Source: Prevotellaceae bacterium (GTDB lineage Bacteria > Bacteroidota > Bacteroidia > Bacteroidales > Bacteroidaceae). Taken from it: a DNA stretch of 61,962 bases. A model generated the notes under the pieces. It had not been told where the DNA came from and did no database searches. It was given only the letters and a program-made list of their open reading frames with translations. Below, piece by piece: positions 1 to 13,691 of the stretch (position 1 is its first letter; every line of letters starts with the position of its first letter). Where the stretch lies: NCBI GenBank assembly GCA_029219385.1, contig JAQXTH010000027.1, forward strand, positions 1 through 61,962. The letters run 5' to 3'. The position numbers were made by a program, and so were the translations under genes.

Positions 1-166
1 ATATGTTGTTTTGTGTCACCCCTCGGGGATTAATACATTATGCCGTGCCCCTCGGGGCTTAACAAATTGACACTCAACCCCGTAGGGGTTTAATAGATTA
101 GGGTGGGGGCTTGCCCCCACCGTAGAACCGACTACCCCACCCCCTCGCCCCGGTAGGGGGCGAATA
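1..166. repeat. GC-rich mini-hairpin block, copy A
   Basis: This 166-bp block is almost identical to 3734-3899, and its second half recurs at 8884-8992. It consists of consecutive short palindromes separated by AT-rich spacers: CCCCTCGGGG, GCCCCTCGGGGC, AACCCCGTAGGGGTTT, GTGGGGGCTTGCCCCCAC and a CGCCCC..GGGGGCG stem. No coding frame is credible in it. It touches the window edge, so it may extend further upstream. Its function is not known to me; it could be a REP/MITE-like element, an mRNA-stabilising array or a recombination hotspot. Confidence 0.85.
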
Positions 167-307
167 CAACATCTTCACGCCTTTGCGACACGGAATTGCC
201 TCGTAAGCACTATTTTGCACGAAAGAAATTTTTTATATAAGCTATTGACACGAAAAGTTGAATATCTGATAAAAATTCATTTTTATAGATCTTTGAAGCC
301 TTTAGAA

Positions 308-339
308 TTGATATGAGAAAAGGAAATAACTTAACTTTG
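308..339 (+). promoter_or_regulatory. Bacteroidetes-type promoter for the 987-aa secreted protein
   Basis: TAACTTTG (332-339) matches the -7 consensus TAnnTTTG. A TTG at 308-310 lies 21 bases upstream and could be a weak -33 element. The distance to the ATG at 369 gives a 5' UTR of about 20-25 bases. Confidence 0.55.
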
Positions 340-368
340 CACATATAAACATTATAAAATTTATCTCC

Positions 369-3332
369 ATGAAAAGACTTTTTCTCTTTCTTCTTGCCCT
401 TGTCGGACTATGTCTGCACGTTCCGACCACGGCAACAAACACAAGTGCCGGCGACGAAGTCGCCGTGACCCCTACTCTACCCGAGAGTGGAAAGTATTAT
501 TTTATTGTTTCGCAATACACGGCCCACCCAACCAAGAAGGCTGAAATTCGCTCTGTCTATATCGACCCATCTGTCGATGGAAGCAGACTTCGCAACCATG
601 AATACGACCCTGCGAACCCCTCCATGCAAGATTTGTTCTTGATTGAAAAAACAAGCGAGGGAATATACACCATGCAACACTACAACACCGGCAAATATGC
701 CGGAAGTGCAAGTAGTACCAACGGTTATTCTGCTTCGCCGGTAAATCTCTATGTTCAAGAAGGCTCATTTTCTTCGGGTGGCACTACGGTGAATGGATTT
801 TATATCTCAACTCTTGACCCCTCTGAGGCAAACAATAAATGTTGGAGCACATATACCGGCACCCTCAATTGGATAGATGCTCAATATGCATCAGGCTGGC
901 GCAGTCTTTATCAATTTGTAGAAGCTCCCGGTTCTTTTACAAATAAAATATCGGCAGCTGAAGGCATTGCCGCCCTTCAAGCAAAATACGACGAAATACT
1001 CGCCATATACAACAACATGACCTCTCCCACTTACTACGACGCTGCATTTACGGAAGAAATGCGCACCAACCTGCTTAACAAGCTCAACGAAGCAGCCGAG
1101 GCTATCAAAAATGCTCCATCGGGCGAGAACTCATACTACACAAACCTTGCCACCGAATTGCAAACAACCTACGAGGCTCATCCTTTTGTAGAGGGTGGAA
1201 AACAATTCTGGCCTTTAACAATCGACTCGATTGCCGACGGGCGTACTCTGATTATAGAAACGGCCTGCACCGGTTATCGCAACAAATTTGTCGTGGCCTA
1301 TCCCGACCGCAACAATAATACCTCTGTGATGATTAACGACGAGGGAAAAGAAAACGCCACAATATGGCAACTCGTGGCAACAGGTGAAAACGATGCTATT
1401 TATACCGACAAACCCACCTACTATCTGAAAGACAAGGCCTCGGGCAAATATTATGGCGCCACCTCGCTCACCTCAATAAATGAGGGTGACAAACGCATGG
1501 TAGACAACACAGATATGGCCTATCCGTTTTGTTTCCTCACCAAACAGGATATTATAGACAAAGAGGGAACTACGCCCAATCTATATGGCTGTGAAAACCC
1601 CGTCTTCATTCACCACTCCAACAGCGACGGCACGTGGTTTCGCCTCTCGCGCTTTGGTGGTTACACGCAAATGTATTACATCAGTTCCTCCTTTTATCCC
1701 AAAAACGCACAATGGTACACATGGCTTATCTACAGTGGAGAAAGTGACTTTAACATATCTTCAGAACTGTCGCAAACTCTCGAAGAAGTGGCAGGCATCA
1801 GCGCAGATTTTATCGGCACAGACCCCGGCTATTATCCCGAGGAAGTGTTGACACCTTTCTTAAACGCCAAAAATGCAGCCCTTGCCATCACTCCCGAAAA
1901 CTCACGCCAAGAGTATCGCGATGCCATTGACAATCTTAAAACCACTTATTCCGCCGCTGCTGTTGCAGAACCCAACGCCATAACCGACGGCTATTATTAT
2001 ATTCGCAGTGCATGGCAAAGCAAAAGCAGTCTAAACCTTGCCGCTTACGACATCAACAACGGAAGCAACAACCTTGGTTGGCACACCTTAGACCCCAACA
2101 GCCTCTACGACATCTTTGAAATAAAAAAGATTGAAGATGGCAAATATTCCGTGCAAAACCTCGGCAGCAAACTCTATGTAAACAAACAAGAGAACAACTA
2201 TGTTAGCATGAGCGAGACTCTGCCCACTGACTATTATCAAATCTTCACTTACAAGGAAAATGCCTGCTTCCAATGGAGAGACAATAGTTCCACCTTTACA
2301 TATTATATAAAGGAATTTGATAATAAAGGTGAGATTGGTCGCTACTACTCTCAAGCCGATGCATATGCCTTTGACCGCTGGCGTCTCAACAAAGTGTCTC
2401 AAGAGTTTGTTGAAGCACTTATCAACGGCATTTCGTTTAACCTCAACGAAGGTGAACTCGTTGCAACGGGCAACAACATCTCTATCGATAATATCACCAA
2501 TGCACTTAATGACAATCCTGCCACCACCGTTTTGGACCTCAGCAGTGCGACCATAAATTCGGAGATTACGGCAGAACAACTCAGCGCAACACTCAAAGGC
2601 AATCAGATTGTCGTTTTGCCAAACGGTTCGGCTCTCAGTGGCAAAAATCTTATCGCAAACGGCACCTGCAATAACCTCGTGTTGACCGACAAGGCTGAGT
2701 TCGCTCCCGGCACTTCGTTCACTGCCACCAACGCAACCTATCAGAAGTATGGTCTCGACGGTTCGGGCTGGTATAGCGTTGTGTTGCCCTATGACGTGAC
2801 AGTACCCTCAGGCATGAAGGTGCTCAACAATGCCGTGGTTTCAGAAAACACGATTAAATTCGACGCTGTGGCAGAGGGTGCCACCATCAGTGCCAACACC
2901 CCATTCCTCTATAAGACTGCCGACAACAGCGTGGCATTCAGCGCAACAGGTGCTACCATCGATGCCATCGCCGGCACAAGTGGAGACTTGAAAGGAACCT
3001 ACACCCTCATAGCCGCAGGCGACGCAACAGGCAAGTTGATCCTCAACTCCGACGGTTCGGCATTTGCCAGAGCAACCGCCCTCGCCTCCATTCCGGCATT
3101 CCGTGCATACCTTGAAGGCACCGGATTGAGCGGTTCAAACACATTTGCTATCGTGATTGACGACGAGTTGACCGGTGTAGCCGACGCAGCAACGCTCAAC
3201 GGACAGGGTTCACCCGTAGATGTCTACACCACCGACGGAACTCTCGTGCGCTCACAGGTTGACCCGCTCACCGCATTGCAGGGATTGCCCAAAGGCACAT
3301 ACATTGTTAATGGTAAAACGTATAAAAAATAA
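369..3332 (+). CDS. large secreted multidomain protein (cassette 1), unknown function
   Basis: The 987-residue protein has a signal peptide at about 1-22. Two segments, near residues 38-190 and 540-690, carry the motifs 'YYFIV/YYYIR', 'IEKTSEGIYTMQ/IKKIEDGKYSVQ' and 'GKYAG/SKLYV', suggesting beta-trefoil or lectin-like folds. Two helical stretches (about 196-270 and 480-540, with 'EEMRTNLLNKLNEAAEAI' and 'YRDAIDNLKTTYSAA') resemble FIVAR-like spacers. Near 790-950 is a beta-rich module ('WYSVVLPYDV', 'ANTPFLYKT'), followed by a tail 'LPKGTYIVNGKTYKK' shaped like a short type IX secretion sorting signal. I infer export to the surface or medium and possibly glycan or host binding; I see no catalytic motif. 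The mini-protein gene starts 10 bases after its stop, so the two are probably cotranscribed. It has the same position as the 1409-aa gene in cassette 2, though the two proteins are only loosely similar. Confidence 0.85.
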   Translation: MKRLFLFLLALVGLCLHVPTTATNTSAGDEVAVTPTLPESGKYYFIVSQYTAHPTKKAEIRSVYIDPSVDGSRLRNHEYDPANPSMQDLFLIEKTSEGIYTMQHYNTGKYAGSASSTNGYSASPVNLYVQEGSFSSGGTTVNGFYISTLDPSEANNKCWSTYTGTLNWIDAQYASGWRSLYQFVEAPGSFTNKISAAEGIAALQAKYDEILAIYNNMTSPTYYDAAFTEEMRTNLLNKLNEAAEAIKNAPSGENSYYTNLATELQTTYEAHPFVEGGKQFWPLTIDSIADGRTLIIETACTGYRNKFVVAYPDRNNNTSVMINDEGKENATIWQLVATGENDAIYTDKPTYYLKDKASGKYYGATSLTSINEGDKRMVDNTDMAYPFCFLTKQDIIDKEGTTPNLYGCENPVFIHHSNSDGTWFRLSRFGGYTQMYYISSSFYPKNAQWYTWLIYSGESDFNISSELSQTLEEVAGISADFIGTDPGYYPEEVLTPFLNAKNAALAITPENSRQEYRDAIDNLKTTYSAAAVAEPNAITDGYYYIRSAWQSKSSLNLAAYDINNGSNNLGWHTLDPNSLYDIFEIKKIEDGKYSVQNLGSKLYVNKQENNYVSMSETLPTDYYQIFTYKENACFQWRDNSSTFTYYIKEFDNKGEIGRYYSQADAYAFDRWRLNKVSQEFVEALINGISFNLNEGELVATGNNISIDNITNALNDNPATTVLDLSSATINSEITAEQLSATLKGNQIVVLPNGSALSGKNLIANGTCNNLVLTDKAEFAPGTSFTATNATYQKYGLDGSGWYSVVLPYDVTVPSGMKVLNNAVVSENTIKFDAVAEGATISANTPFLYKTADNSVAFSATGATIDAIAGTSGDLKGTYTLIAAGDATGKLILNSDGSAFARATALASIPAFRAYLEGTGLSGSNTFAIVIDDELTGVADAATLNGQGSPVDVYTTDGTLVRSQVDPLTALQGLPKGTYIVNGKTYKK

Positions 3333-3342
3333 CACACTAACT

Positions 3343-3525
3343 ATGAAGAAACAATATATTGCGCCTTGTTTTGAGGCTATCGAAATAAAACCCGCCCAAA
3401 TAATGGCGGCGAGCGTGTCAATTTCGGGCGAAACCGACAACGAAGCCCGCTCCAAACAGTTCTGGGGTTCCTCTATCTTCGATGAAAAAGAGGAAGAAGA
3501 GGATAACAACAACAGTTGGTATTAA
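3343..3525 (+). CDS. acidic 60-aa mini-protein ending in SWY (cassette 1)
   Basis: The 60-residue protein begins 'MKKQYIAPCFEAIEI', continues through a short hydrophobic stretch ('IMAASVSISG'), and ends with 'KQFWGSSIFDEKEEEED' and 'NNNSWY'. I chose the ATG at 3343 because the mini-protein in cassette 2 starts the same way (MKKxYI.P). The open frame extends upstream to 3220, but that part overlaps the 987-aa gene and has no counterpart. Short Bacteroidales proteins starting MKKxYxxP with acidic, Trp-containing tails are common in genomes but I know no function for them. It lies 10 bases downstream of the secreted-protein gene and just upstream of a strong terminator. Possible roles are a chaperone or partner of the secreted protein, a peptide precursor or a signal; none is shown. 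Confidence 0.8.
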   Translation: MKKQYIAPCFEAIEIKPAQIMAASVSISGETDNEARSKQFWGSSIFDEKEEEEDNNNSWY

Positions 3526-3703
3526 ACCCGATAAATAATCATCGGAACAAGGTTTAAAATCCTTTTCTCGATATAAAACCGAAATACCGGCCACAATTCA
3601 TTTCCTGAATTGTGGCCGGTTTTGTTTTGTCCGGGTTGGTGGTGGCCATGTCCATAGGGGCAAGCCCCTACACTATTCTATGTCGCCCCTTTCAGAGCTT
3701 AAC
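3523..3703 (+). repeat. cassette 3' block, copy 1 (terminator plus hairpin)
   Basis: From the mini-protein stop codon onward, about 180 bp match 8708-8890 with few changes. The block contains a small CCGAT..ATCGG stem, the rho-independent terminator and a TAGGGGCAAGCCCCTA palindrome. Conservation continuing past the stop codon shows that the duplication covered the 3' flank as well as the coding part. Confidence 0.85.
3586..3628 (+). terminator. rho-independent terminator, cassette 1
   Basis: A perfect 15-bp stem (3586-3600 with 3606-3620, loop TTTCC) is followed by TTTGTTTTG. It closes the 987-aa/mini-protein operon. Confidence 0.9.
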
Positions 3704-3733
3704 GTGTTCATTCTTGTTGTGTTGTTGTATTTA

Positions 3734-3899
3734 ATATGTTGTTTTGTGTCACCCCTCGGGGATTAATACATTATGCCGTGCCCCTCGGGGCTTAACAAAT
3801 TGACACTCAACCCCGTAGGGGTTTAATAGATTAGGGTGGGGGCTTGCCCCCACCTTAGAAGAGACTACCCCACCCCCTCGCCCCGGTAGGGGGCGAATA
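3734..3899. repeat. GC-rich mini-hairpin block, copy B
   Basis: This block has the same length (166 bp) as copy A and is nearly identical, with differences mainly around 3855-3862. It sits between the two cassettes. The stretch 3526-4045 otherwise holds the terminator, the conserved 3' block and an AT-rich promoter region for cassette 2. I see no other gene in it. Confidence 0.88.
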
Positions 3900-4008
3900 T
3901 TTTTTTTGCCGACAACCAAATATCGAAACAAATAATGAGCAATTTGGGATAAAATAACGAAAAAACAATTTTTCGATATAAAACAACATTATTTTAAATA
4001 AATTTTTA

Positions 4009-4016
4009 TATCTTTG
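4009..4016 (+). promoter_or_regulatory. -7 element for cassette 2
   Basis: TATCTTTG matches TAnnTTTG. No clear TTTG lies at the -33 position. Transcription from here would include the 32-codon leader frame at 4046-4144 before the large gene. Confidence 0.45.
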
Positions 4017-4045
4017 CATTTCACATCTAAACCTAAAATAGGAAT

Positions 4046-4144
4046 ATGAAACTCAGCAACCACACAACAGAATTTTTCAGCCTCGCGACAACAATATGCG
4101 TTGCCGCCACAGCATTCTTATCGACTGCGCAGGTGTGGTGTTGA
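4046..4144 (+). CDS. 32-aa signal-peptide-like leader ORF upstream of the 1409-aa gene
   Basis: This short frame (ATG at 4046, TGA ending at 4144) encodes a 32-residue peptide with a hydrophobic, alanine-rich core ('SLATTICVAATAFLSTAQ') resembling a complete signal peptide. It lies between a -7 promoter match and the 1409-aa start at 4189. It may be a translated leader peptide, the remnant of a lost secreted protein whose body was replaced by the present gene, or chance. Cassette 1 has no equivalent. Confidence 0.35.
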   Translation: MKLSNHTTEFFSLATTICVAATAFLSTAQVWC

Positions 4145-4188
4145 CATATATAATACTTCGCTGAACTTACAACTAAAAAATTATACAA

Positions 4189-7100
4189 ATGAAACTAACA
4201 CTTAAATTCTTATTCTCCACCCTATTACTATTGGTAATGGGCGCAACGGCAAAAGCAGCCGTGGGAGACGCACTGACAGCCGTCAGCGAGATTAGCAACA
4301 CAAAATGCTATACAATCTCGACCACACGCGGCAATTTGGTAATCAACACGGCAGGAACAGCAGCCGCATCAAGTCACAAAATCAACGGTACCGTTGTAAA
4401 TGATGATGCCAGCACCGACGAAGCCTATGGACAGTGGGCTTTGCTCACCTTTAACGGACAGAGTTATTATCTCTTTAACGTGGGTTTGAAGAAATTTCTC
4501 TGCGCCGACAACACGCTCAGCAACGACTACAAAACCGCTATCACGATAGAGGCTCACGGTAGTCAGTCGGGAAATTACAGATTCAAGTTGATTGGCAACT
4601 CAAACTGGTTGAACAACAACAACAACGGTGGTGTATATTTTGATTCACACAAGGGTGAAGACGACGGCAACAGGGTTCAAATCGCTGAAGCCGGTGATTT
4701 CGACCCCACATATTTCAACACAAAATATACTATCACTTACAATTATAAGATCAACGGAGAAACTGTATTCAGCGAACCTTTTATCACATATCTCGGCCAG
4801 ACCTTTCCCACACCGACCAAACCTTCGTATGTAGAAAACTCCACTCCCGGAGGAACTATAACTGCAAGTTGCAACGGCCAAACCTACGACATCGAATGCA
4901 CAACCTCTCTCCCCTTTAAATTTTATCCTGAAGGCACTGCATGGGGAAGCATATCGTATTGGAATTTCTTGAAACTCCATGGACTATATGCCTCCTACGA
5001 CCCTGACAATTATCCCAATTTCTGTCCAATTTCAAGCACAAACGAGGAAGCGAAAAAAGAAAACAACGCTTTTGCCTTTATCGGCGACCCATATAACGGT
5101 TTCCGCATTGTGAACCGCTATGCCGGCGAAAACTATACTCTCTCCAACACCAACAACCCTTGGGACGGCAACGAAGGTGGCAGCACATACGCCTTTATGA
5201 AAGAACGCAATTCGCTGACACTCGGCAGCGCACAAGGCAACGACGTGGAGAGATTTTTCGTGAGCAAAGTAAACGCCACAACATTTTATCTGCAAATTAA
5301 AACATACGACGGCGCACCAAAAGCATTTGTAGAGATGAACGACCGCAACAATGGCACAAACCATTTCTTATCCTATTGGACAGGTGGTAATGGCAGTGGC
5401 TCATACGTCACCATAGAAGAAACAGCGTTTGACCTCGTACAGACAACCATCACATGGAACATTCTCGACGACTCTGACAACATAGTCGCCACCGAGACAC
5501 TCGAGAACTGTGTGCAAGGCAACCAATATACCACCAAATATACAAAAAACATCGGTGCCACAATCGCAAACCCCACAGTGACCGCCGGTCTTGAAGACCA
5601 GACCATCAACACTCACTACACCTTGGATGGCAGCGTGATCAAGATCAGTCCCAACAAGGAGAATGTGACATGGTATAAGATGAAAATTGAGAAAAATTCG
5701 GGACTATATCCAACTTTCTACGGAAACGAAACTATCACAGACTCCGGCACAGAGCCAACAGAATTGAGCATGAGAAACTGTTTCGCTTTTGTTGGAACAC
5801 CGTTTGGTTTCAAACTCTATAATAAATTTGCAGGTCTCGACACTCCTTTTGGCACAGATATCAGCAATGGCCTCCTCTCAATAACAACAGACGAGAATGC
5901 CGCTACCTTGGTGGCAGAATATAGTCCCAACGATGGTTTCACTGACAAAGTGATGATTCGCAATGTGAGATTTGAAACAGCTTACTTCAACGACAATAGT
6001 GGCACATTAGGTTTTTGGAATTCCGGATATAACCGTAGCGATAAAGGTTCATTCTTTGAATTTACAGAAGTGTCAAACAGCGAATTAGATCAACTCGTAG
6101 TACTAAACTACAACTACAAAAACGGCGAAGATTTGTGGTACACTCAGAAAGTAGAGGCCTCTTTGGGTGCTTCTCTGCCCTCAGCAATGACAATGCCCTA
6201 TGGAGTGACCGCCTCTTCCACACCCTCGGGCACCGTCACTGCCGGCACAACAGATTATGACATTCCCGTGACCTATAACCAAGGAAATTCGGGCATGAAA
6301 TTCTTTAACAACATAGACGAAGTCGACACATGGTATAACTGGAGCAAAAGAAATGCATGGTTCAATCAAACAACCGCGTATGTATATTATATAAAAGATG
6401 CAGAATCTTATGACTTTAATAGTACAGCCGAACTTGACAACGCCTATTTGTGGGCAGCCATAGGCAATCCTTTCCAATTTAAGATTGTGAACCGCATGAC
6501 GGGCTTTGACTACTATCTCGACAACCCGAATATCGCAATCGGTGATGGCAATACCCCGACCATGAAACAAACTGCCGGTCAAGACTATTTTCTCTACGAC
6601 TGCACGGGCGGTGCATGGGGTGATTATTGTTTCCAAGTGTTGAACACAGGAACTAACACTGCACTAAACGGAAACGGAACACTTAACTATTGGGTTGCAA
6701 ACAACACCCTTGGTGACAATGGCTCGCAAATGAGATGGACGGCGGTCGACATGGCAGAAGTGCGCAAAAAGGCCGTGGTAAAGGAACTTGACGACCTCAT
6801 TCAGGGTCAGGTCTACACAATCACTGCCGGCGGAACACGCGGAGCATTTGTCTACACCGAAAACGGATTGAGTTCTACATTCAAACTAAGCATAGATGTA
6901 GACGAATCGTCAGATAACCAACGTTTCCTCTTTGTGGAAAAAGGTGGCACACATTATTTATATAGCATTGGAGCCGGTAAATTCATCAACATCACAGGAC
7001 GAGACGAAAACAACAACCGCGCAATTGCCATAGACGGCAGACCGGCCAACACTTCTTTGCAGTTGCTCAAAAGCAGAAACGGCGGCAGTCGAATAACCAA

Positions 7101-8418
7101 CCCGACGATTTTGTCAATTGACGGTCATCATGTGGGTATTTCGAACGGGTTCACTCCCGCTGTAATCACACACTACAATGATTTAACAGACGAAGGCAAT
7201 GCTCTTTGCATTAAGCCGGTATATGGTGTCACTATTGATGACATGGCACCGATAATGACCCTCTTTGCTAACTGGACAGGACTTGAAATTGCCATTGCCG
7301 ATGCAGAAACCCCCGAAGTAAATATGATTGGCACCGGTTTTGGCAAATACACCGCCGACGAAACATTCTACACGTCTCTTGAAAACGCAAAAGACTTGTT
7401 GGCAGCCACACCGCGCGTTGCAGATGAAACAACTGTTGACAATGCAATTGCCTCCATTGCCCTGAGCAACCTCAGCCTCAATATGCCGGCAAACGGCACA
7501 CTGCTCCACATCAAGGATGCCGACAATAACTATATGACTTGCAACAACACCTCGGGCAACCGCATTGCTTTTGACGCTACAAAAGATGTCAATACAATCT
7601 TCTGCTACACCGGCTCGGCTCTCGTGGCTTACACCACCGGATTTTACGCAAGCCGTTCGAGCAACTTCCCCTACCACATGACGGGAGTGACGACCGAAAG
7701 TGATGGCACACTGTATCACATACACGCCTCTCCGCTCACTCGCGGAAAATATCTCATCTCGTTTGGCGGAGACACACGCTTTATGTACAAAGGAGCAGAT
7801 GCAGGAGATTTCAACGGTGGTCCGACCACTGTAAACAACACGAACTATGAGTTCACCCTCGAAGAGACTGAAAGCATTCCCGTCTCAATCAGCGCAGCAG
7901 GCTTGGCAACACTCTATTCACCCATGGCACTCACCATTCCCGAAGGTGTAAAAGCATACGTGGGAGATTACAACAGCGAAAACTCAACAGTGGTGCTCAA
8001 TGCCCTCGAAGGAGTGATTCCTGCCAACACGGGCGTGATAATCGAGGGTGCGGAAGGTTCCTACGACTTCAACACCACGACAACCGCCACCACCGCCACA
8101 AGTTGTCTCACCGGTAGCGTGCCTGCCATTGCAACACCTGCGACCGGTGTCTACACCCTGCAGAAGGTCAACACAAAACTCGGTCTATATAAATATACCG
8201 GTGCCAACCTCGGTGCATTTAAGGCCTACTTCCAGACCTCGGGTGGCAGCAACGGCTTCAGTCTTATTGTGAACGACGACGACCTCACCGGTGTTGACAG
8301 CCTCACACCCAACACCTCTGCCGACAATATCTATCGTGACCTGCAAGGCAATATCGTGCTATATCCGCAGAAGAATCAAATCTATATTCTCAACGGCAAA
8401 AAGGTCTTGAAACAATAG
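4189..8418 (+). CDS. giant secreted repeat protein (cassette 2), unknown function
   Basis: The 1409-residue protein has a signal peptide at about 1-23. Three modules of roughly 220-240 residues start near 181, 419 and 637 ('ITYNYKINGE', 'ITWNILDDSD', 'LNYNYKNGED'). Each contains a signature near 295, 531 and 754: 'FIGDPYNGFRIVNRYAG', 'FVGTPFGFKLYNKFAG', 'AIGNPFQFKIVNRMTG'. A later part (about 860-1100) has beta-trefoil-like text ('FLFVEKGGTHYLYSIGAGK'). The C-terminal region (about 1225-1370) is a beta module with 'IPANTGVIIEGAEG', followed by a tail 'QIYILNGKKVLKQ' resembling a short T9SS-type sorting signal. I see no hydrolase motif; an adhesive or glycan-binding role is inference. The gap to its mini-protein gene is 103 bases, filled by a 69-bp hairpin element, against 10 bases in cassette 1. 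Confidence 0.85.
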   Translation: MKLTLKFLFSTLLLLVMGATAKAAVGDALTAVSEISNTKCYTISTTRGNLVINTAGTAAASSHKINGTVVNDDASTDEAYGQWALLTFNGQSYYLFNVGLKKFLCADNTLSNDYKTAITIEAHGSQSGNYRFKLIGNSNWLNNNNNGGVYFDSHKGEDDGNRVQIAEAGDFDPTYFNTKYTITYNYKINGETVFSEPFITYLGQTFPTPTKPSYVENSTPGGTITASCNGQTYDIECTTSLPFKFYPEGTAWGSISYWNFLKLHGLYASYDPDNYPNFCPISSTNEEAKKENNAFAFIGDPYNGFRIVNRYAGENYTLSNTNNPWDGNEGGSTYAFMKERNSLTLGSAQGNDVERFFVSKVNATTFYLQIKTYDGAPKAFVEMNDRNNGTNHFLSYWTGGNGSGSYVTIEETAFDLVQTTITWNILDDSDNIVATETLENCVQGNQYTTKYTKNIGATIANPTVTAGLEDQTINTHYTLDGSVIKISPNKENVTWYKMKIEKNSGLYPTFYGNETITDSGTEPTELSMRNCFAFVGTPFGFKLYNKFAGLDTPFGTDISNGLLSITTDENAATLVAEYSPNDGFTDKVMIRNVRFETAYFNDNSGTLGFWNSGYNRSDKGSFFEFTEVSNSELDQLVVLNYNYKNGEDLWYTQKVEASLGASLPSAMTMPYGVTASSTPSGTVTAGTTDYDIPVTYNQGNSGMKFFNNIDEVDTWYNWSKRNAWFNQTTAYVYYIKDAESYDFNSTAELDNAYLWAAIGNPFQFKIVNRMTGFDYYLDNPNIAIGDGNTPTMKQTAGQDYFLYDCTGGAWGDYCFQVLNTGTNTALNGNGTLNYWVANNTLGDNGSQMRWTAVDMAEVRKKAVVKELDDLIQGQVYTITAGGTRGAFVYTENGLSSTFKLSIDVDESSDNQRFLFVEKGGTHYLYSIGAGKFINITGRDENNNRAIAIDGRPANTSLQLLKSRNGGSRITNPTILSIDGHHVGISNGFTPAVITHYNDLTDEGNALCIKPVYGVTIDDMAPIMTLFANWTGLEIAIADAETPEVNMIGTGFGKYTADETFYTSLENAKDLLAATPRVADETTVDNAIASIALSNLSLNMPANGTLLHIKDADNNYMTCNNTSGNRIAFDATKDVNTIFCYTGSALVAYTTGFYASRSSNFPYHMTGVTTESDGTLYHIHASPLTRGKYLISFGGDTRFMYKGADAGDFNGGPTTVNNTNYEFTLEETESIPVSISAAGLATLYSPMALTIPEGVKAYVGDYNSENSTVVLNALEGVIPANTGVIIEGAEGSYDFNTTTTATTATSCLTGSVPAIATPATGVYTLQKVNTKLGLYKYTGANLGAFKAYFQTSGGSNGFSLIVNDDDLTGVDSLTPNTSADNIYRDLQGNIVLYPQKNQIYILNGKKVLKQ

Positions 8419-8437
8419 TATTAACATCACTAAAAGA

Positions 8438-8506
8438 ATGTTTTCGTTAAGCCAAATGAGCAGAGCCAAGCTTGCTTGTGCTATGCCATGGCGAGAAAAC
8501 GCAACT
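8438..8506. repeat. 69-bp hairpin element, copy 1 (inside cassette 2)
   Basis: This imperfect inverted repeat is centred on CCAAGCTTG, with outer arms GTTTTC/GAAAAC and an inner CCA/TGG pair. It is homologous to the tandem copies at 56875-56943 and 56951-57019. The inner arms differ from those copies (GCAGAGC versus GCAAAAGC), but the opposite arm changes as well, so pairing is largely preserved. It sits between the 1409-aa gene and its mini-protein gene. The short frame through it is not a credible gene. Confidence 0.8.
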
Positions 8507-8521
8507 AAAAGAACTAAAATT

Positions 8522-8710
8522 ATGAAAAAAACATATATCTGTCCGAAAATGGACATCGTGATGCTCCAAACCAAGGCCACATATTGCGTAGGTTCGCTCC
8601 ATGTGGGCGGAGAATCGGAGTCGGGAGCGGAACAGCTCTCAAAAAAATTCTGGGGCAATACTGCCTTTGACGAAGAAGAGGAAAGCGAAGAGAACTCTTC
8701 ATGGTATTAA
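8522..8710 (+). CDS. acidic 62-aa mini-protein ending in SWY (cassette 2)
   Basis: The 62-residue paralogue of the cassette 1 mini-protein begins 'MKKTYICPKMDIVML'. Its middle is Gly/Ser/Glu-rich, and it ends in 'KKFWGNTAFDEEEESEE' and 'NSSWY'. The two proteins share the MKKxYIxP start, a central region with no strong similarity, and the FWG(S/N)(S/T)xFDE - acidic run - (N)SWY end, so the C-terminus appears to be the constrained part. The start at 8522 removes the hairpin-derived extension that an upstream ATG at 8438 would add. There is one Cys in the first third (also in cassette 1) and a second at residue 22. Function is unknown. Confidence 0.8.
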   Translation: MKKTYICPKMDIVMLQTKATYCVGSLHVGGESESGAEQLSKKFWGNTAFDEEEESEENSSWY

Positions 8711-8890
8711 ACCCGATAAATAATCATCGGAACAAGGTTTAAAATCCTTTTCTCGATATAAACCGAAAAACCGGCCACAATTCATTTCCAGAATTGTGGT
8801 CGGTTTTGTTTTGTCCAGGTTGGTGGAGGTTGCCTTGTCCATAGGGGCAAGCCCCTATGCTGTTCTATGTCGCCACTTTCAGGGCTTAAC
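8708..8890 (+). repeat. cassette 3' block, copy 2
   Basis: This is the counterpart of 3523-3703: the same stop-proximal sequence, CCGAT..ATCGG mini-stem, terminator and TAGGGGCAAGCCCCTA palindrome, with scattered substitutions. Confidence 0.85.
8770..8812 (+). terminator. rho-independent terminator, cassette 2
   Basis: A 14-bp stem (8770-8783 with 8791-8804, one G-U wobble) is followed by TTTGTTTTG. It is homologous to the terminator at 3586-3628. Confidence 0.88.
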
Positions 8891-8992
8891 AAACTGGCAC
8901 TCAACCCCGTAGGGGTTTAATAGATTAGGGTGGGGGCTTGCCCCCACCGTAGAAGCTACTACCCTCCCCCCCGCCCCTGTAGGGGGCGAATA
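8884..8992. repeat. GC-rich mini-hairpin block, copy C (shortened)
   Basis: This corresponds to the second part of copies A and B (from GCTTAAC onward): AACCCCGTAGGGGTTT, GTGGGGGCTTGCCCCCAC and the final CGCCCC..GGGGGCG stem. The first two palindromes are missing. A further degenerate piece with 'GGTTGGTGGTGACC' and 'GTCCATAGGG' lies at about 9029-9080. The rest of 8993-9240 is AT-rich and I see no gene in it. Confidence 0.82.
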
Positions 8993-9248
8993 ACTTTTTG
9001 TCGACAACCAAATTATGGATATTGTTATATCGCCCTTTCAGTGCTTGGGTTGGTGGTGACCCTGTCCATAGGGACACCCCCCTGCCGTTAAAGGATAAAG
9101 AGAGTTAAAGAGAAAGCGTTTCTTGACAAAGTACACATTTTGTCGACCAAACATTACAAAACGACACATTAAAGCCTCTATTCACGTCATTTTGTCACGT
9201 TTTTCGTCTAAAAAACTTAAAAATGAAAGATTTTCGGGCTTTCGTATG

Positions 9249-9276
9249 TAATTTTGCAAAAAAAGCAGTACTTTTG
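9249..9276 (+). promoter_or_regulatory. two overlapping -7 elements upstream of dapF
   Basis: TAATTTTG (9249-9256) and TACTTTTG (9269-9276) both match TAnnTTTG. Neither has an obvious TTTG at -33. They lie upstream of the ATG at 9311 and argue against the longer TTG-started frame beginning at 9254. Confidence 0.45.
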
Positions 9277-9310
9277 TAATCGAAAACTAAACCAACAGAC
9301 CACGACAACA

Positions 9311-10150
9311 ATGTCAACAATAAAATTCACAAAAATGCACGGAGCAGGCAACGACTACATTTATGTCAACGCCATGAAATATCCACTCTCAAATCCGGAG
9401 CAACTCGCCATTTCGTGGAGCGACCGCCACAAAGGAATAGGTAGCGATGGACTGATAATGATAGATCGCTCGAAGATAGCCGACTTCAAAATGAGAATGT
9501 TTAATAATGATGGTAGCGAAGGCATTATGTGTGGAAACGGAGTGAGATGTATAGGCAAATATGTCTACGACCACCGACTAACGACCTCAACTACCGTGAC
9601 TTTAGAGACGTTGGGTGGCATAAAGATTCTGAAATTGTTTGTTGGTAGCAACAATCTGGTGGAAAAGGTCAGAGTTGACATGGGAAAGCCTATATTGGCC
9701 GACAAAAACCAATTGGCAAACAACAATGGCGCAATGAAAATGGGCATTGTGAGTGTAGGCGGAAAAGATTATACCGGCACATTTGTCTCGATGGGCAACC
9801 CTCACTTTGTGATTTTCACAGACAACATTGATGACATTGACCTTGCCAAAGAGGGTAGCAAATTAGAGAGACACCCCATGTTTCCGCAACGCTGCAACAT
9901 AGAATTTGCCGAGCAAAGACCGGGAAACGTGTTTCGCACCAGAGTGTGGGAACGTGGCACCGGCATCACACAAGCCTGTGGCACAGGAGCGTGTGCCACA
10001 GCCGTGGCCGCCATCGTAAACTCAAAGGCAAACGATCGCGCCACAATAGCCATGGACGGTGGTGACCTCGAAATTGAATGGAACGGAAACGACAACCTCT
10101 TCATGACCGGCCCTGCCGCAACAGTTTTTGAAGGCGAAATAGAAATCTAA
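9311..10150 (+). CDS. dapF: diaminopimelate epimerase
   Basis: DapF converts LL-diaminopimelate to meso-diaminopimelate, the direct precursor of lysine and the cross-linking residue of peptidoglycan. The 279-residue cytosolic protein starts 'MSTIKFTKMHGAGNDYIYV', the normal family N-terminus, which fixes the start at 9311. The two catalytic cysteines are visible: Cys74 in 'MCGNGVRC' and Cys223 in 'QACGTGAC'. Length is typical. dapL follows after 30 bases and supplies its substrate, so the pair forms the last two steps of the aminotransferase route. glnN completes a nitrogen-linked operon. Confidence 0.97.
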   Translation: MSTIKFTKMHGAGNDYIYVNAMKYPLSNPEQLAISWSDRHKGIGSDGLIMIDRSKIADFKMRMFNNDGSEGIMCGNGVRCIGKYVYDHRLTTSTTVTLETLGGIKILKLFVGSNNLVEKVRVDMGKPILADKNQLANNNGAMKMGIVSVGGKDYTGTFVSMGNPHFVIFTDNIDDIDLAKEGSKLERHPMFPQRCNIEFAEQRPGNVFRTRVWERGTGITQACGTGACATAVAAIVNSKANDRATIAMDGGDLEIEWNGNDNLFMTGPAATVFEGEIEI

Positions 10151-10180
10151 ACATTATATATATTTAGTCAAACACAGACT

Positions 10181-11413
10181 ATGACAAAAGTAAATGATAA
10201 TTTTCTGAAACTGCAAAAGAGTTATCTCTTTGTGGCCATTGCCCAAAAGGTGAAGGCATTCAAAGAGGCAAATCCCAGCGCCAAAGTGATAAGTCTTGGT
10301 ATTGGCGATGTGACGCAACCTCTCGCACCGGCTGTGATAGAAGCCATGCACAAAGCCGTGGACGAAATGACAGACACCAAGACCTTTCGCGGCTACGGAC
10401 CCGAACACGGCTACGCTTTTCTGCAAGATGCAATAATAGCCAACGACTTTAAACCGCGTGGCATAGAACTGACACGCGATGAAATATTTGTGAACGATGG
10501 TGCCAAAAGCGACACCGGCAACATAGGCGACATTTTGGGAAAAGACAACACAATCTGCGTGACCGACCCGATTTATCCCGTCTATATTGATTCAAACGTG
10601 ATGAGCGGACGTGCCGGCGAGATTGTCAACGGCCTATGGAGCAACGTGAGCTACATGCCATGCAACGCCGAAAACAACTTCACACCAGAAATTCCCGACC
10701 ACAAGACAGACATCATATATCTGTGTTACCCCAACAATCCCACCGGCACCGTGATAACACGCGAGCGACTTGCCGAATGGGTGGAATATGCCTTGAGACA
10801 TAATAGCATAATTATGTATGATGCCGCCTATGAGGCATACATACAAGATGAGACCATTCCCCACTCCATCTATGAAATTGAGGGGGCAAAGAAATGTGCC
10901 ATTGAGTTTCACAGTTATTCCAAGACGGCAGGCTTCACCGGCGTGAGATGTGGATATACCGTGGTGCCCAAAGAGCTTAAAGCCATTGCAGCCGATGGTA
11001 GCGAAGTGGAACTGAACGGTCTGTGGGAACGCAGACAAAGCACAAAATTCAACGGCACAAGTTATATCACCCAGCGCGGAGCAGAAGCGATCTACACGCC
11101 CGAAGGCAAGAAACAGGTGAAAGCAACCATTGACTACTATATGGCAAACGCCAAGACCATGCGGCAAACACTCACCGGCCTCGGCCTGAAAGTTTTTGGA
11201 GGAGAAAACGCACCCTACATCTGGTTTAAGACCCCCGGGGGGATGAGCAGTTGGGAAATGTTTGACAAAATGCTCAACGAAGCTCACCTTGTATGCACCC
11301 CCGGCGTAGGCTTCGGTCCGAGCGGCGAGGGATATATACGACTCACGGCCTTTGGACAGCACGAAGATTGTCTCGAAGCAATGGAACGAATAAAGAAAAT
11401 AATAAAATTATAA
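10181..11413 (+). CDS. dapL: LL-diaminopimelate aminotransferase
   Basis: This PLP-dependent class I/II aminotransferase makes LL-diaminopimelate directly from tetrahydrodipicolinate and glutamate, bypassing the succinyl and acetyl branches. The protein has 410 residues, the usual DapL length. The PLP lysine is Lys248 in 'SYSKTAGFTGVRCGY'. Other family marks are 'FRGYGPEHGY' and 'CYPNNPTGT'. It lies directly downstream of dapF and 18 bases upstream of glnN. The dapF-dapL-glnN grouping is what I expect from Bacteroidales. Confidence 0.96.
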   Translation: MTKVNDNFLKLQKSYLFVAIAQKVKAFKEANPSAKVISLGIGDVTQPLAPAVIEAMHKAVDEMTDTKTFRGYGPEHGYAFLQDAIIANDFKPRGIELTRDEIFVNDGAKSDTGNIGDILGKDNTICVTDPIYPVYIDSNVMSGRAGEIVNGLWSNVSYMPCNAENNFTPEIPDHKTDIIYLCYPNNPTGTVITRERLAEWVEYALRHNSIIMYDAAYEAYIQDETIPHSIYEIEGAKKCAIEFHSYSKTAGFTGVRCGYTVVPKELKAIAADGSEVELNGLWERRQSTKFNGTSYITQRGAEAIYTPEGKKQVKATIDYYMANAKTMRQTLTGLGLKVFGGENAPYIWFKTPGGMSSWEMFDKMLNEAHLVCTPGVGFGPSGEGYIRLTAFGQHEDCLEAMERIKKIIKL

Positions 11414-13621: not shown

Positions 13622-13636
13622 TCGGTCTGTCTATAA

Positions 13637-13681
13637 ACACAAAATGCCCGAGCAGAAAATTCCTGCCCGGGCATTTTGTGT
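13637..13681. terminator. bidirectional terminator after glnN
   Basis: A 14-bp perfect stem (ACACAAAATGCCCG at 13637-13650 with 13668-13681) is A-rich on one side and T-rich on the other, so it can end glnN on the plus strand and the ATPase gene on the minus strand. Confidence 0.88.
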
Positions 13682-13691
13682 ATAAAGAAAG

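Follow-up and report, generated by a model that had tools for sequence, protein, structure and literature searches.

Small YxxP proteins encoded behind large secreted proteins in Prevotellaceae as candidate RRE-dependent peptide precursors

What is the small protein that twice follows a large secreted protein at the left end of a Prevotellaceae contig, and what ties it to its larger neighbour? The window analysed here is the entire contig C27 (61,962 bases, position 1 being the contig end) of a draft genome of 2.18 Mb in 62 contigs that is 88% complete. An earlier, sequence-only reading took its first 9 kb to be an expandable array of surface-protein cassettes. Comparison with relatives points elsewhere: the small proteins (hereafter minis) are probably RRE-dependent precursors of ribosomally made, post-translationally modified peptides (RiPPs), similar to the linear polyphosphorylated peptides (LPPs) of Bacillota. 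Each is encoded next to a surface protein, and maturation would take place in trans.

Two units and a dispersed repeat

The plus strand carries two consecutive units of like order, as that reading had described, each consisting of a secreted protein (here a giant), a mini-gene, a terminator and a hairpin block (Table 1). The description of giants that are barely alike beside conserved minis and 3' flanks also holds. The sole significant alignment between the giants covers their last ~195 residues (27% identity, E = 6e-6), and self-BLASTP found no internal repeats in them at E 1e-3. The minis are 44% identical, both terminate in SWY, and the other three minis of the genome are 33-44% identical to mini 1, for which a longer frame from 3220 merely gains an upstream ATG. 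A strict mini pattern has exactly two matches in the whole window, namely these two genes, and none in the reversed window. Searches of the window minis, tails and giants against Pfam and NCBIfam gave nothing above any cut-off. Downstream of the units lie genes that we take, from their translations by eye, to be dapF, an LL-DAP aminotransferase-like gene and a GSIII-like glutamine synthetase; the last is followed by a long inverted repeat (13627-13691; 32-nt arms, 84% complementary, 1 base between).

Table 1. Features of the two units in the window
Feature	Position	Strand	Description or basis
Hairpin block, copy A	1..166	.	At contig end; repeat pair with copy B
Giant 1, large secreted protein, 987 aa	369..3332	+	Signal-peptide-like N-terminus by eye
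Giant 1 tail	C27:3045-3329		...VYTTDGTLV...LPKGTYIVNGKTYKK; tail profile match, 76.4 bits
Mini-gene 1, 60 aa	3343..3525	+	Leader MKKQYIAPCFEAIEIKPAQIMAAS; acidic end ...SWY; 10 nt after giant 1
3' flank, unit 1	about 3521-3690 (3526 after stop)	+	Alignment; common to both units
Terminator-like hairpin + T run (intrinsic type), unit 1	3586..3624	+	Inverted repeat I1
Hairpin block, copy B	3734..3899	.	98% identical to 1-166
Giant 2, large secreted protein, 1409 aa	4189..8418	+	Tail ...NIYRDLQGNIVLYPQKNQIYILNGKKVLKQ; tail profile match, 92.7 bits
Mini-gene 2, 62 aa	8522..8710	+	Leader MKKTYICPKMDIVMLQTKATYCVGS; acidic end ...SWY; 103 nt after giant 2
3' flank, unit 2	8706-8881		Alignment
Terminator-like hairpin (intrinsic type), unit 2	8770..8808	+	Sequence
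Hairpin block, copy C (shorter)	8879..8992	.	92% identical to window 52-166

The 3' flanks have a history of their own. In 30-column blocks counted from the mini stop codon, identity is 30, 29, 28 and 28, then 25 and 23 of 30, and the mini coding blocks of the same alignment reach 13 to 20 of 30. Because identity jumps so sharply at the stop codon, the flank including the terminator appears to have been copied recently and the genes not. Two motifs of the flank were confined, among the 367 loci fetched by then, to loci covering the place of unit 1 or the copy in unit 2.

The hairpin block has 29 matches in the source genome (E <= 0.001), spread over 19 contigs; it is a dispersed repeat and therefore does not mark the cassette, which rules it out as a cassette-specific marker. 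Three of the matches touch contig ends (C27, C48 and C54), as expected if the assembly breaks at the repeat, and Rfam assigned no family to positions 1-9400 at gathering score. The sequence-only reading had expected a third unit upstream of position 1; since the block is dispersed and position 1 is the contig end, such a unit cannot be inferred.

Minis and tail-bearing secreted proteins in the genus and family

We built a first mini profile from the four minis of the source genome and searched 19 genomes of the genus (E <= 0.1), which yielded 87 minis, those four included, in 11 genomes. The upstream partner was defined as the longest reading frame ending nearby upstream of each mini. Gaps between the two were <=0 nt in 8 cases, 1-30 nt in 56, 31-60 nt in 7, 61-150 nt in 7 and >150 nt in 9 (n = 87). 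Most upstream proteins share a C-terminal tail, either YD-x-x-GR...KG-x-YI-x-NGKK or a longer variant ending NIVK-x-SNGKTQKI, and a tail profile made from 25 of them matched all 19 genomes, with 6 to 57 matches per genome (150 matches listed). For 75 of the 87 minis, a listed tail match (of the 150) lies on the same strand no more than 300 nt upstream, which supports the earlier idea of the mini as a general partner of large secreted proteins; the count is partly circular because the profile came from such proteins. With independent patterns for both partners, 57 of 74 were paired, in loci themselves picked for minis, and the strict mini pattern matched three times in the reversed DNA of loci chosen for minis.

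Viewed from the other side, 72 of the 150 listed tails have a mini from the first profile. We inspected the sequence downstream of 40 of the remaining 78 and in eight saw a divergent mini that had escaped the profile; no mini was recognised (ATG starts only) behind the other 32, four of which have <=206 nt of sequence left. A tail protein can therefore do without a mini, as these 32 of the 40 inspected unpaired tails have no recognised one. The apparent absence of minis from eight genus genomes was partly an artefact of sensitivity, divergent minis being seen downstream of tails in G001, G006 and G012. A wider mini profile, built from 86 minis, found none in four genus genomes (G003, G010, G011 and G017), and, when run on 301 genomes of the family, matched in 213 of them and in 22 of 30 genera; most of the relatives with a name are Prevotellaceae from rumen and gut. 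Among 20 loci from other genera, 16 have by eye a mini lying between 4 nt inside and 77 nt behind a protein of the tail type.

Tandem units, another element of the sequence-only reading, recur in relatives, for example on contig C1 of G002. There, five minis and four large tail proteins lie on one strand within about 12 kb (L113, G002 C1:1-18559). Two different minis in series behind one large protein were observed in L110, L111 and L113 (G007 C78, G008 C148 and G002 C1, respectively).

Mini and partner similarity were compared by Mantel tests. Over 69 pairs, leader similarity correlated with tail similarity (r = 0.18, 0/1000 permutations), as did that of the variable core (r = 0.16, 0/1000); correlations with the body of the large protein were r = 0.07 for both leader (93/1000) and core (98/1000). 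In 50 non-redundant pairs, leader-tail correlation was r = 0.16 (8/2000), core-tail correlation was r = 0.06 (311/2000), and no covariation was found between core and body (r = -0.03, 1369/2000 permutations as high). A variable mini end that does not track the giant's body fits the earlier suggestion that the mini serves whichever giant is there.

The tails resemble by eye the type A sorting domain of the type IX secretion system (T9SS; TIGR04183 and PF18962; signals after PMC10202324, as far as that source was available) in their end, YD-x-x-GR...G-x-YI-x-x-GK, and the T9SS translocon component SprA is present in the source genome (2611 bits). They differ from it in staying under the curated cut-offs (best E = 0.065 in the window, for giant 1 against TIGR04183, and 0.019 in a relative), for which reason we term them T9SS-type and not T9SS signals. 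Ten tails from other loci gave nothing above Pfam or NCBIfam cut-offs. Against the PDB, the best match of the tail profile was the C-terminus of the endo-arabinanase 4kca (E = 3.5e-8), followed by 7jvi (E = 0.0014), and no T9SS sorting domain was named among the matches. An AlphaFold model of the giant 1 tail had a mean pLDDT of 52, the last ~40 residues alone being confident. SprA was detected in 16 of the 19 genus genomes and in 232 of the 301 family genomes (229 above cut-off). Both mini and SprA occurred in 195 genomes, mini only in 18, SprA only in 37 and neither in 51, kinship being ignored; one exception, G028, is 100% complete and has 19 minis and no SprA match.

The leader motif and the RRE machinery

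The sequence-only reading had left unseen the likely nature of the mini as an RRE-dependent peptide precursor. No match better than E 0.017 was obtained for 86 minis against Pfam and NCBIfam, and the mini profile had a single PDB match (E = 0.61), taken as chance. Weak lasso_cyano matches in 4 of the 86 (best E = 0.017), not evidence in themselves, led to the motif YxxP, which occurs in 84 of the 86 aligned minis; 81, including both window minis, have YxxPx[LIVFAMC]. In the 84 YxxP minis a hydrophobic residue is found at Y+5 in 96%, at Y+8 in 92% and at Y+10 in 99%, and in 72 a Ser falls between Y+17 and Y+20, most often at +19 (49%). The 86 minis average a charge of +1.9 in the first 24 residues and of -7.0 in the remainder, the acidic variable end.

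The motif YxxPx[L/V/I/F/A] is the one bound by discrete lasso RREs according to the available part of PMC13381572, and YxxP is given as the lasso recognition motif in that of PMC12710340. The former source also gives the LPP leader consensus as YxxPxVLxHQxIxFETxxS; LPPs are cleaved after T-1 and phosphorylated on core Ser 3, which by our count is Y+18, so that the Ser peak of the minis lies one residue later than in LPPs. The accessible text of a survey of Bacteroidales RiPPs (PMC10352776) describes GG-motif precursors and has no "YxxP". In literature judged at the level of summaries, we found neither these minis described nor T9SS connected with RiPPs. We class them as LPP-like rather than as proven LPP members.

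A search for the RRE family (PqqD, PF05402) gave one strong stand-alone RRE over cut-off in 12 of the 19 genus genomes, the source genome included. The source-genome protein (G000:C49), a discrete RRE, scores 62 bits against a cut-off of 23.4, and among PDB sequences it matches only two lasso RREs at E <= 0.01 (TbiB1 and a lasso PqqD chaperone; 5v1u, E = 0.007, and 9x90, E = 0.008). Beside it in L276 lies a signal-peptidase-I-like (SpI-like) protease gene (9755-10228) that clears one cut-off only, that of PF00717 (24.9 bits over 23.3), and stays below that of TIGR02228 despite E = 1e-8. The neighbourhood also contains an HprK-like kinase gene (10228-11106; TIGR04352, E = 1e-5), below every curated HprK cut-off, and a HAD phosphatase gene follows. 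This gene set recalls the LPP core set listed in the consulted portion of PMC13381572, namely SpI, discrete RRE, HprK-like kinase, NTP transferase and MsbA-like transporter. The 19-kb stretch around the source genome's RRE showed neither a recognisable NTP transferase or MsbA-like gene nor a convincing mini (pattern and eye). An ABC exporter adjoins the RRE in G014 (family scan) and, by resemblance, in G001 and G006; an NTP_transf_5 gene is likewise near the RRE in G014 (family scan).

Across the 19 genomes, minis and RRE occurred together in 11, minis only in four, RRE only in one and neither in three (P = 0.12, not significant). G015 (86% complete) has 21 minis and no RRE match, and G011 has an RRE and no minis.

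Physical linkage was sought by scanning an RRE alignment over named genomes, where at least 573 places matched; of the best 80, which were kept, 58 are by title Bacteroidota, 15 Bacillota and 7 Fibrobacter. Paraprevotella clara is one of the species with the RRE. Pattern scans covered all 80 and 23 were read gene by gene. Genes said below to be in the place of a kinase, SpI or exporter are so named from position and look, family scans supporting NTP_transf_5 in L315, L353 and G013 and the exporter in L353. The order large protein, mini, RRE region was found in five of the best 80 loci. Two encode tail proteins: L293 (Prevotellaceae UBA2744) encodes a 1124-aa protein with tail, a 44-aa mini, the RRE and a gene in the kinase place, and L340, one and the same stretch as G014, has a tail protein cut by the contig end, a 34-aa mini, NTP_transf_5, a 286-aa gene in the kinase place, an SpI-like gene, the RRE and the ABC exporter. 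The other three are from Bacillota. In L315 (Eubacterium barkeri), a 2798-aa secreted protein with InlB-type repeats precedes a 36-aa mini, the RRE, genes in the SpI, kinase and exporter places and NTP_transf_5. In L353 (Clostridiaceae), a 732-aa secreted protein with InlB-type repeats is followed 15 nt on by a 35-aa mini and then by a gene in the kinase place, the RRE, an S24-like protease just below cut-off, the ABC exporter and NTP_transf_5. In L344 (a Bacillota MAG), a 1570-aa protein precedes a YxxP mini whose length is 29-35 aa according to the start codon chosen, and the RRE lies 2 kb on. A single contig of G013 also joins a tail protein, a 43-aa mini and, further down, NTP_transf_5.

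By eye, the large proteins of L315, L344 and L353 are without a T9SS-type tail; because of this the mini is not tied to T9SS and appears to accompany large secreted proteins in general. The strict YxxP pattern, with 9 matches in the 1.34 Mb of the 80 RRE loci (six judged true) against one in reversed DNA, misses these three loci; a looser one returned mostly noise. A large secreted-looking protein (732 to >3000 aa) was seen near the RRE region in the Bacillota loci L315, L332, L344, L353, L356 and L360. The Fibrobacter locus L339, outside Bacteroidota, contains a tail of the same type, two YxxP minis and an RRE.

A proposed pathway, its competitors and known systems

If the minis are RRE-dependent precursors, the pathway might run as follows. 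Secreted protein and mini would be made from one mRNA, given gaps of 10 and 103 nt and a terminator behind the mini, and the discrete RRE of the genome would bind the Y-x-x-P-x-hydrophobic leader, as motif and gene content suggest. By analogy with LppS, the SpI-like protease beside the RRE may remove the leader near residues 20-24, where the HprK-like kinase may phosphorylate a Ser by analogy with LppK. The acidic variable peptide would then be exported, an MsbA-like exporter being next to the RRE in relatives, and, more speculatively, would work together with the large protein, or upon it, at the cell surface; anchor, tag and matrix partner are conceivable roles. Several to many dispersed precursors would be served in trans by a single machinery, unlike in Bacillota clusters. 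Against this stand the separation of the source genome's minis from its RRE, the non-significant association of minis with RREs across genomes (with G015 and G011 as discordant cases), a kinase below every cut-off and a protease that clears a single one, linkage in only five of the 80 RRE loci, the 32 inspected tail proteins that have no recognised mini, and the lack of core-body covariation; the RRE operon might serve other peptides.

The mini could instead be an unmodified cytoplasmic partner, a secretion chaperone or pilot, of the large T9SS-type cargo encoded directly upstream. Several observations would suit such a role: the mini closely follows the 3' end of its partner (71 of 87 gaps <=60 nt), minis correlate with SprA in the 301 genomes, kinship ignored, and leader similarity weakly tracks tail similarity in the non-redundant pairs. 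We consider it unlikely, as the Bacillota loci have the pair without T9SS-type tails (by eye), G028 has many minis and no SprA match, 32 of 40 inspected unpaired tail proteins lack a recognised mini, and the leader motif is that of RRE substrates. A further reading, which seems rather improbable to us, makes the mini a signalling or antagonistic peptide of RiPP-like kind, with the large protein as a mere operon neighbour. It would agree with a conserved leader and variable end, with the lack of core-body correlation, and with the patchy distribution of LPPs, typical of conflict genes, noted in the part of PMC13381572 at hand; a large tail-bearing protein upstream of 75 of 87 minis, and again a large secreted protein upstream in Bacillota, are hard to explain by chance.

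An expandable cassette array with surface variation through recombination at flanking repeats, as the sequence-only reading proposed, is in our judgement very improbable. The 98% identical 166-bp repeats on both sides of unit 1, the tandem units of relatives and the recently copied 3' flanks speak for it, but the repeat is dispersed, the giants are unrelated apart from the tail and the other minis of the genome are only distantly similar to mini 1. Surface variation by cassettes is thus not supported, the giants appearing to be old, different proteins with a common tail between which only the 3' flank was copied recently.

Under the precursor reading, which we prefer, the recurring pairing suggests that the cell produces a surface protein and its modified peptide as a partnered pair. 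A tentative extension, possible but doubtful, is that gut bacteria of the Prevotella type use one mRNA, at several to many loci per genome, to produce a large surface protein together with a modified peptide dedicated to it, with one RRE, protease and kinase set acting in trans, and that the peptide is attached to, anchors or switches the protein. If true, secreted proteins would be tagged or fixed by a general mechanism that Bacillota share, and LPP-type peptides would gain a first biological role, a role called unknown by their discoverers in the available text of PMC13381572. The minis are a large protein family with little resemblance to Pfam or NCBIfam entries, widespread in the family genomes. 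Should they be RiPP precursors, a very large set of such precursors has gone unrecognised in these bacteria, and the role of LPP peptides becomes testable, with the surface protein encoded next door as the partner.

Among known systems, lasso peptides share the leader motif (discrete B1/RRE, YxxPx[LVIFA] leader), and the RRE resembles TbiB1 and lasso PqqD chaperones, but neither a lasso cyclase nor a B2 peptidase is among the 10 neighbourhood proteins scanned. The LPP RiPPs of Bacillota, as presented in the accessible portion of PMC13381572 (precursors of 35-200 aa), are alike in the YxxP leader, the conserved Ser near Y+18, the variable end, and the discrete RRE with SpI-like peptidase; a putative HprK-like kinase lies nearby, and NTP transferase and MsbA-like exporter genes join the set in relatives. 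That text calls LPPs restricted to Bacillota, contains no word beginning "bacteroid", and places their clusters often in capsule loci; the present minis, unlike these, number several per genome and are scattered, each one following the gene of a large secreted protein, and the machinery lies in another part of the genome.
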